Below the pieces are notes generated by a model. The model ran no database searches and was not told where the DNA came from. It was given only the letters and a program-made list of their open reading frames with translations. Below, in pieces: positions 4,086 through 4,804 of a DNA stretch of 13,681 nt. Source of the stretch: a bacterium (GTDB lineage Bacteria; SM23-31; JAUVVT01); the NCBI GenBank assembly GCA_030616165.1, contig JAUWXV010000082.1:1-13681 (forward strand), written 5' to 3'. How positions within the stretch are numbered: the first letter of the stretch is position 1; each line of letters opens with the position of its first letter. The position numbers were made by a program, and so were the translations under genes.

Positions 4086-4170
4086 GTGGAGGCGGCGGGA
4101 GTCGAATTCGCCAGAGGCGAACAAGCCCGCAAGGGCGTGCTTTACCCGCCTGAGGCGGGCCGCGTCCGAG
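4086..4170 (-). repeat. Second copy of ssrA 3' end, interrupted
   Basis: Positions 4086-4106 (21 nt) and 4160-4170 (11 nt) together reproduce the 33-nt 3' terminus of the tmRNA gene (4447-4479), in the same orientation and order, except for one base at the junction. They are split by a 53-nt hairpin block. Sequence identity stops at both outer ends. This is not a functional tmRNA end. It is the displaced fragment expected when an element inserts into ssrA and supplies a new 3' end. Confidence 0.85.
4107..4159. repeat. Three-hairpin insertion (REP-like)
   Basis: The 53-nt block consists of three perfect short hairpins in a row: TTCGCC-AGA-GGCGAA (4105-4119, sharing its first bases with the target), GCCC-GCAA-GGGC, and CCCGCC-TGA-GGCGGG (4145-4159). 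It is far more GC-rich than its surroundings and sits inside the T-loop of the displaced ssrA copy. It resembles dispersed palindromic repeats found in many bacterial genomes. Confidence 0.75.
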
Positions 4171-4186
4171 GATATTTATCAATAAG

Positions 4187-4405
4187 CTATTTACGTCTTT
4201 GTCCCGATTTAAGGAATTTTTCACGTTTTCGGGCAGCTTTATATTCATGAAATTCTTCTACATGAAGTAGATTAAAATCACCTATTATCTGCCCTCCTTT
4301 GGTTTGCTTACTTCGATGTTCTGTTAAACGACGATCTAAATTATTCGTTATCCCAACATACCTTTTTTCTGTATTTATACCTTCAAGAACGTAAACATAT
4401 ACCAT
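4187..4405 (-). CDS. Single-domain GIY-YIG endonuclease
   Basis: The 72-aa protein shows the GIY-YIG nuclease core: a VYVYVL strand for the GIY part, RYVGITNNLDRRLTEH for the YIG part with the family arginine and histidine spaced as usual, and EFHEYKAARKREKFLKSGQ carrying the conserved glutamate helix. These enzymes cut DNA using the tyrosines, arginine and a glutamate-bound metal. Related stand-alone proteins (UvrC/YhbQ-type) are usually about 80-95 residues, so this one is short at the C-terminus, ending just after KSGQRRK. It starts 18 nt past the tmRNA terminator hairpin with only a weak ribosome site, so it may be expressed by read-through from ssrA. It lies exactly between two copies of the ssrA 3' end, suggesting a role in its own insertion, similar to homing nucleases. 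Confidence 0.85.
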   Translation of the reverse strand: MVYVYVLEGINTEKRYVGITNNLDRRLTEHRSKQTKGGQIIGDFNLLHVEEFHEYKAARKREKFLKSGQRRK

Positions 4406-4418
4406 GAAATTACTCTAT

Positions 4419-4445
4419 AAAAAAATCCGCAGAATCTGCGGATTT
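4419..4445 (-). terminator. Rho-independent terminator of ssrA
   Basis: On the minus strand a perfect 10-bp stem (AAATCCGCAG/CTGCGGATTT, 4445-4436 with 4432-4423) with a 3-nt loop is followed by a run of T (4425-4419). It begins two bases after the tmRNA 3' end, so it ends the tmRNA transcript. It lies within the segment between the two ssrA 3' copies, so it may have come with the element. Confidence 0.85.
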
Positions 4446-4446
4446 A

Positions 4447-4479
4447 GTGGAGGCGGCGGGAGTCGAACCCGCGTCCGAG
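4447..4479 (-). repeat. Direct repeat: intact ssrA 3' end
   Basis: This 33-nt segment is the T-arm and 3' acceptor strand of the tmRNA plus one following C. The same sequence, interrupted by 53 nt, occurs at 4086-4170. It is the presumed insertion-site repeat. Confidence 0.85.
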
Positions 4480-4804
4480 AAGAACTCATTGAAAACATCT
4501 ACATACTTAGTCTGTCTATTATTTATTCTCCCGTTATGTCTCCAACAGACAGGATATATAACGGGATATCCCGAAAAATACAACTTACTATCCAGGGCAG
4601 ATAGTAAGCAGTCTTATCTAAAGCGACACTTCTTTAAGCCCCGATAAGAGAGAGCAAAAAGAAGCGAGCTGCTTAACTATTAAGCAGCCATTGCAAACGC
4701 ATTTCCGTCTGCAGTTAATCTTTTTCCAGCACTTTTTACTGGGTTTGCTGACTCCCAGGTATGCAGTTCTCAGCTCATTAATCCCGTCGAAACCTTTCGC
4801 CCCC
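4448..4804 (-). ncRNA. ssrA: tmRNA (transfer-messenger RNA)
   Basis: tmRNA rescues stalled ribosomes and tags the incomplete protein for proteolysis. The 5' end GGGGGCGAAAGGTTTCGACG (from 4804) pairs with the 3' end CGCCTCC-A to form a 7-bp acceptor stem with one G-T pair. The T-arm GCGGG-TTCGACT-CCCGC is intact. The resume codon GCA (4712-4710) starts the tag ADGNAFAMAA, followed by TAA and TAG in tandem. TTAACT just before the resume codon matches the E. coli context, and the -AA ending is the usual protease signal. The full CCA is not encoded. Pseudoknot-forming segments, such as ATAACGGGA with its complement TCCCGTTAT, are visible. Length is 357 nt, normal for the family. A TTGACA box is visible upstream (4865-4860), but no well-spaced -10 box goes with it. 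Confidence 0.97.

Follow-up and report, generated by a model that had tools for sequence, protein, structure and literature searches.

The window analysed here, a 13,681-nt stretch of bacterial DNA, carries at its ssrA (tmRNA) gene a GIY-YIG unit that probably belongs to a class of minimal elements, widespread and free of an integrase, lying within tRNA and tmRNA genes. Units of this class consist of one small GIY-YIG gene with a complete tRNA or tmRNA gene on one side and a truncated copy of the outer end of that gene on the other, and the truncated copies are often broken by hairpins of the form YYGCC...GGCRR. We give about an even chance to the broader proposal that these single-gene units, together with derivatives that hold only hairpins, are an undescribed mobile class that spans phyla and is specialised on tRNA and tmRNA genes, inserting into arms or loops with no integrase while the gene is rebuilt by the part that the unit carries. 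The nuclease would drive the mobility of the units, as the initial annotation had supposed.

The GIY-YIG unit at ssrA

The tmRNA gene of the window was intact, as the initial annotation had described it: it scored 188 bits with RF00023 (gathering score 47), and the encoded tag peptide given by ARAGORN was ADGNAFAMAA. On the minus strand it is followed by a terminator-like hairpin, which had also been recognized between the repeat copies, then by the GIY-YIG ORF and finally by a hairpin-split copy of the ssrA 3' end (Table 1). The duplication of the ssrA end was real, with a direct repeat at 4086-4111 and 4447-4472 spaced by 361 nt. The earlier description of a contiguous 33-nt copy was wrong, since the distal copy keeps 32 of the 33 nt and is split into 11 and 21 nt in the T-arm by a 53-nt block (4159-4107). 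This block is made of three palindromic hairpins, and as single-stranded DNA it folds better than 200 of 200 shuffles (z -3.45). Even with two mismatches allowed, the 18-nt repeat core is present at just these two places in the 3.74-Mb genome. The core of hairpin 1, CCCGCCTSAGGCGGG, occurs once, and the idea that the hairpin is a genome-wide repeat of the host was rejected on that ground.

Table 1. Features of the ssrA unit (window positions 4086-4804).
Feature	Position	Strand	Basis or remark
Intact ssrA (tmRNA)	4447-4804	-	ARAGORN and Rfam
Proximal repeat copy (final 33 nt of ssrA)	4447-4479	-	
Terminator-like hairpin AAATCCGCAGATTCTGCGGATTT, then a T run, between ssrA and the GIY-YIG ORF	4423-4445	-	
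GIY-YIG nuclease ORF, 72 aa	4187-4405	-	Pfam GIY-YIG match
First segment CTCGGACGCGG of the distal partial ssrA copy	4160-4170	-	
Hairpin 1 CCCGCCTCAGGCGGG, within the T-arm of the distal ssrA copy	4145-4159	-	
Hairpin 2 region TAAAGCACGCCCTTGCGGGCTTG	4122-4144	-	Diverged in SM23_31, still paired
Hairpin 3 TTCGCCTCTGGCGAA	4107-4121	-	
Last segment TTCGACTCCCGCCGCCTCCAC of the distal partial ssrA copy, from the T-loop to the 3' end	4086-4106	-	

No ORF other than the GIY-YIG gene was found between the two ssrA-end copies, so that the unit contains no Y1/HUH transposase, and no PF00589 match was present on the window contig, in agreement with the earlier view of a small element free of an integrase. 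Over the ssrA region the tmRNA was the sole Rfam match; a self-splicing intron was not detected, and a group I intron was rejected for this reason. The nuclease ORF lies outside the intact ssrA and is not carried in an intron or intein, neither of which is needed by free-standing homing genes. The suggestion that the unit hitch-hikes on ssrA transcription fits poorly, since the terminator separates ssrA from the ORF, although the same-strand orientation of the related units is constant.

The 72-aa protein matches positions 2-73 of the 78-position Pfam GIY-YIG model (E 5e-14). Its family-conserved residues are Y5, Y16, G18, R26, H30 and E50, and the catalytic Tyr, Arg, His and Glu of the superfamily are represented by Y5, Y16, R26, H30 and E50, which bears out the nuclease motifs read earlier. 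In a wider search for near copies, just the protein of bacterium SM23_31 and one remote relative were found. The window nuclease and the SM23_31 copy differ by a dN of 0.11 and a dS of 1.97, and the dN/dS values in comparisons of unit nucleases were about 0.06 and 0.17. Hence, the gene is under purifying selection and the protein is maintained. The nuclease had no match in either the phage or the plasmid collection, and the unit was therefore not regarded as phage or plasmid cargo.

SM23_31 (G005) belongs to another genus of the same class. Its nuclease is 82% identical to the window protein; a tmRNA end and a terminator precede the gene, and a tmRNA end split by the same hairpins follows. Between the two genomes hairpins 1 and 3 are almost unchanged, and hairpin 2 has diverged in both sequence and length with its pairing kept. 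Such preserved structure, together with the constant orientation, would suit a role at the RNA level, in which the GIY-YIG protein binds or cuts hairpin-carrying pseudo-tRNA or tmRNA transcripts as a regulator or a toxin-like module. We consider this highly improbable, because the truncated copies, missing either their 5' or their 3' part, are unable to form a tRNA, the palindromes read alike on either strand and look like REP repeats at the DNA level, and GIY-YIG is typically a DNase fold.

In a member of the window's own family (G001), with a common neighbour gene upstream of ssrA, a different GIY-YIG gene (34% identity) follows ssrA, and a copy of the tmRNA end, GCGAATTCAATTCCCGCCGCCTCCAC, lies about 0.7 kb away. 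Two further relatives (G002 and G004) have ssrA with neither a GIY-YIG gene nor an end copy, in other gene neighbourhoods, so that an empty site at ssrA was found only in relatives with other flanks. The tmRNA copies beside window-type units, in the window genome and in SM23_31, do not encode the CCA terminus (window 4447; L007 1-20), and the tmRNAs of G001, G002 and G004 do (L116, L118 and L119). At the ssrA flank of SM23_31 (L136, G005:C149, 1570-2620), further plain tmRNA-end copies lie on both sides of a hicBA-like toxin-antitoxin pair, with an MNT-type nucleotidyltransferase beyond; these names come from reading the translations. The region flanking ssrA is a hotspot of insertion, and ordinary att-like insertions may also occur at that of SM23_31.

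Recurrence at tRNA and tmRNA genes

Relatives of the window protein were surveyed at 90 loci in 61 of 386 genomes. A tRNA or tmRNA gene lay within 300 bp of 41 of the 90 GIY-YIG loci and of 9 of 388 control ORFs on the same contigs (Fisher p 2e-25), and the nearest tRNA or tmRNA was invariably on the same strand as the GIY-YIG gene. When the related genes were checked for duplicated tRNA or tmRNA ends, as the initial annotation had proposed, a partial copy of the neighbouring tRNA was found past the nuclease gene at 28 of 42 testable loci, compared with none of 44 control tRNAs (p 2e-12); 14 of the 42 tRNA-linked loci had no partial copy at E<=1e-4. The targets represented were tRNA-Leu, Ser, Pro, Cys, Arg, Asp, Gln, Tyr, Asn, Glu, Lys, Ala and Gly and the tmRNA, and the window's own genome has a second unit consisting of a tRNA-Leu, a GIY-YIG gene and an interrupted tRNA-Leu copy. 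The element, thought unusual at first, thus falls into a common class with many related loci at tRNA and tmRNA genes.

The units take two forms. In one, the intact tRNA is upstream and the partial copy downstream of the nuclease gene, reaching the tRNA 3' end. In the other, the intact tRNA is downstream, and the upstream partial copy nearly always starts from the tRNA 5' end or slightly before it and usually ends near the T-loop. About half of the related units duplicate the 5' end. The partial copy nearly always lacks the portion adjoining the nuclease gene, and in both forms the 5' end of a single tRNA gene bounds the unit as a whole on one side and its 3' end on the other. The arrangement therefore looks like an insertion inside the gene with an internal stretch duplicated.

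Since tRNA 3' ends are classic att sites, and the ssrA flank of SM23_31 is a hotspot with plain tmRNA-end copies around hicBA, the repeats might instead be att copies left by an integrase island, with the GIY-YIG gene as a passenger and the integrase lost or acting in trans. Scars of integrases at 3' ends would yield only the form with the intact tRNA upstream, whereas many units duplicate the 5' end, with the opposite polarity. In 24 genomes holding 30-odd tRNA-class loci, PF00589 matches fell on contigs other than those of the units or no closer than 16 kb, the sole exception being a XerC/D-like gene about 5 kb from one unit (G118); the search addressed the tyrosine type, and the window unit holds a single ORF. 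Moreover, att sites are not split by hairpins, and the phage and plasmid collections gave no match. The lack of a nearby tyrosine integrase and the many 5'-end duplications led us to reject an island end as the main reading, and we judge it very improbable.

The nuclease tree, built from 90 domains and 73 columns, was weakly resolved. It contained a well-supported clade of 39 (99/88), in which 20 members had flanking REP-like repeats by the survey threshold and 2 had a tRNA. Among the remaining 51, 41 had a tRNA or tmRNA nearby, and two more are in such units, namely L007, where the contig starts inside the tmRNA end, and a tandem copy in L041. The identity of the tRNA required 30 changes on the tree, compared with 34.9 when shuffled, a value as low being reached in 2 of 500 shuffles (5 of 500 without near-duplicates). 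The Cys units of two families were paired, and likewise Arg units and Asn units. By this modest signal, nucleases that are related tend to sit at the same kind of tRNA in different bacterial families. Members of the clade of 39 (L002, L058, L066, L096, L099-L101, L104, L107, L109, L110 and L113) sit in REP-like palindromes such as GTCATTCCNGCGAAAGCNGGAATCC and GTCATTCCTGCGAAAGCAGGAATCC, often as inverted flanking copies and in many unrelated genomes.

Locus turnover and hairpin inserts

An empty site was found at an orthologous tRNA-Gln locus of one bacterial family, where the tRNA is always followed by the same gene (product start MN..LK.FSG.AN). The locus is empty, with a single tRNA, in three genomes (G447, G448 and G449). 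In three others (G134, G445 and G452) it is occupied by a 5' partial copy, a nuclease gene and an intact tRNA, and the 5' copies have an insert in the T-loop, GGGTTC[TCCGCC...]GAGTC. In a further three (G446, G271 and G451) there are hairpin-split 3' copies and no nuclease; the G446 insert, TCCGCC...GGCGGATCCGCC...GGCGGA, is at the same T-loop site as in the occupied loci, and the inserts of G271 and G451 are of another form. Presence and absence at one orthologous site, as in homing elements, were thus observed. L041 contains an additional nuclease copy that has a stop, and in L046 a remnant of a nuclease 3' end lies upstream of the pseudo-tRNA, indicating that units stack at one site.

The palindromic inserts interrupt the partial tRNA copies at or near arm and loop positions. 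A tRNA-Arg copy in G207 reads GGATA[CCTGCCTGCCGGCAGGCAGG]GAGC, and G289 has a longer hairpin at the same position; the tRNA-Asn copies have anticodon-loop inserts ([TCCGCCTTAGGCGGA] and [TTCGCCGCGGCGAA]), and a tRNA-Tyr copy has the insert [ATCCCGCCAACGGCGGGA]. A YGCC start and a GGCR end were present in 11 of 33 inserts, compared with 0.28 in shuffles (a maximum of 2 over 1000 shuffles), and inserts of the opposite end polarity were not seen (0/33). Individually, only 13 of the 33 had unusually long stems compared with shuffles. Counts of CGCC..GGCG and GGCG..CGCC across the whole flanks gave no polarity signal, which was confined to inserts within the partial copies. The hairpin claim rests on the end-motif test, not on stem length.

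Hairpin-only forms were also found at tRNA-Pro. In the window's genome (G000:C312, L230/L236), tRNA-Pro is followed by a 3' copy, GGTT[TCCGCCTGAGGCGGATCCGCCTTTGGCGGA]CAAATCC, with no ORF, and in SM23_31 (L237, G005:C278, 1385-1640) by two such copies in tandem, again with no ORF; in both genomes the T-loop of the copies holds a double hairpin, TCCGCCNNNGGCGGATCCGCCNNNGGCGGA. Across the 386 genomes this double hairpin was seen at only 6 places, of which 3, all in the window's class, are the T-loop insertions just described; the remaining 3 have no tRNA next to them. The hairpin-only and nuclease-bearing forms resemble non-autonomous and autonomous versions of one element; as some split tRNA copies carry no nuclease gene, hairpin insertion may be a separate process.

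Those nuclease-free split copies, at tRNA-Pro in the window genome and SM23_31 and at tRNA-Gln in G446, G271 and G451, would also be expected if slippage duplicated tRNA ends and the redundant copy then gathered palindromes, the nuclease gene merely using a safe transcribed neighbourhood; the same-strand orientation is compatible with read-through transcription. We regard tandem duplication and decay as quite improbable, because control tRNAs on the same contigs had no such copies (0/44), the part next to the nuclease gene is nearly always missing from the copy, and members of one nuclease lineage tend to be found at the same tRNA from one family to another.

Two further arrangements were noted. 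The intergenic double hairpin (L235, about 1490-1545; L238, about 828-880) adjoins the short direct repeats GAAAGTT and ACTTAT, which may reflect the mechanism of its insertion. In the window genome, two tandem 5' tRNA copies (nt 1-40) lie ahead of tRNA-Gly (L217, G000:C145, 917-1169), and a 5' copy to about position 41 lies ahead of tRNA-Lys (L211, G000:C326, reverse strand, 1593-1745), each with a stretch similar to CATATAAA and an AT-rich hairpin resembling a terminator behind it. This arrangement is a second kind of truncated-tRNA unit, without a nuclease.

Possible mechanism and relation to known systems

For integrase-free insertion by the nuclease, we propose that the protein would cleave the tRNA or tmRNA gene, probably at a hairpin-forming sequence of the T-arm or another arm and perhaps as a single strand, and that homology-directed repair would copy the unit into the cut gene. 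The tRNA sequence carried by the unit would suffice to rebuild a working gene, so that the insertion would be harmless. The hairpins in the displaced copy might be the recognition structures of the nuclease, or they might render that copy inactive, shield it from cleavage and lower the chance that recombination removes the element.

The chief objection to classical homing is that the intact tRNA or tmRNA gene persists beside the nuclease, where it would be re-cut unless cleavage were limited to one strand or by structure; the partial copy is split by hairpins, yet the intact target adjoins the nuclease gene. Ssn of Neisseria is reportedly a small GIY-YIG nuclease that acts on single-stranded DNA at the repeated NTS sequence, and single-strand cleavage of this kind would make the persistence of the intact gene easier to accept. 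For the window unit itself, the tmRNAs free of a unit (G002 and G004) are in other synteny, and the clustering by tRNA identity is weak.

The likeness to Ssn also suggests a host system that is itself not mobile, in which a site-specific, possibly single-strand GIY-YIG nuclease acts on hairpins and tRNA arms and modulates DNA uptake or rearrangement. The sister clade of 39, 20 of them with flanking repeats, among REP-like palindromes and the purifying selection on the nuclease are in line with such a system. The presumed site is no genome-wide repeat, however, since the genome holds a single hairpin core and two copies of the ssrA end, and presence or absence at the orthologous tRNA together with tandem accretion indicate turnover of whole units. 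We consider an Ssn-like host system unlikely, and prefer the reading as an integrase-free element.

Each of the known systems shares some traits with the units. Like GIY-YIG homing endonucleases, whether free-standing or encoded in introns (T4 Seg and I-TevI, for example), the unit has the catalytic domain, consists of a single-gene element and is present or absent at orthologous sites, but it has no intron or intein and, at 72 aa, no NUMOD-type DNA-binding domain, and its target gene stays whole beside a hairpin-split partial copy. The Ssn family, with its NTS repeats, likewise has a small stand-alone GIY-YIG protein, and the sister clade lies within REP-like palindromes; the sequence associated with the unit is one tRNA or tmRNA gene with a private hairpin block, whereas that of Ssn is a repeat in hundreds of copies. 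REP/REPIN sequences with their RAYT (Y1) proteins also consist of short palindromic hairpins that may or may not be accompanied by a nuclease gene, but here a GIY-YIG protein takes the place of the HUH/Y1 enzyme and the location is inside partial tRNA or tmRNA genes. Integrative elements at tRNA and ssrA 3' ends, such as genomic islands and prophages, also duplicate the end and restore the gene upon insertion; in contrast, the units have no integrase, measure about 0.3-0.5 kb, duplicate either end of the tRNA and have a hairpin-split distal copy.

In the open literature we found no account of bacterial tRNA- or tmRNA-linked GIY-YIG units, although the list of Ssn homologues may include some, and nothing relevant on GIY-YIG proteins linked to tmRNA, REPIN or hairpins in bacteria. 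The searched passages of the 2006 survey of the GIY-YIG superfamily (PMC1564403) describe no such units.

The best-known landing sites of mobile DNA in bacteria are the ends of tRNA and tmRNA genes, a preference that is ascribed to integrases. If the proposal is true, a class of nucleases of 70-100 aa would provide a second, far simpler and integrase-free route into these genes, and many of the 'pseudo-tRNA' fragments beside tRNA genes would be explained. The likely targets of this family of tiny nucleases can be read from the flanks, so that their specificity is directly testable. REP-like palindromes and insertion into tRNA genes, which are usually kept apart, would be joined in these units.
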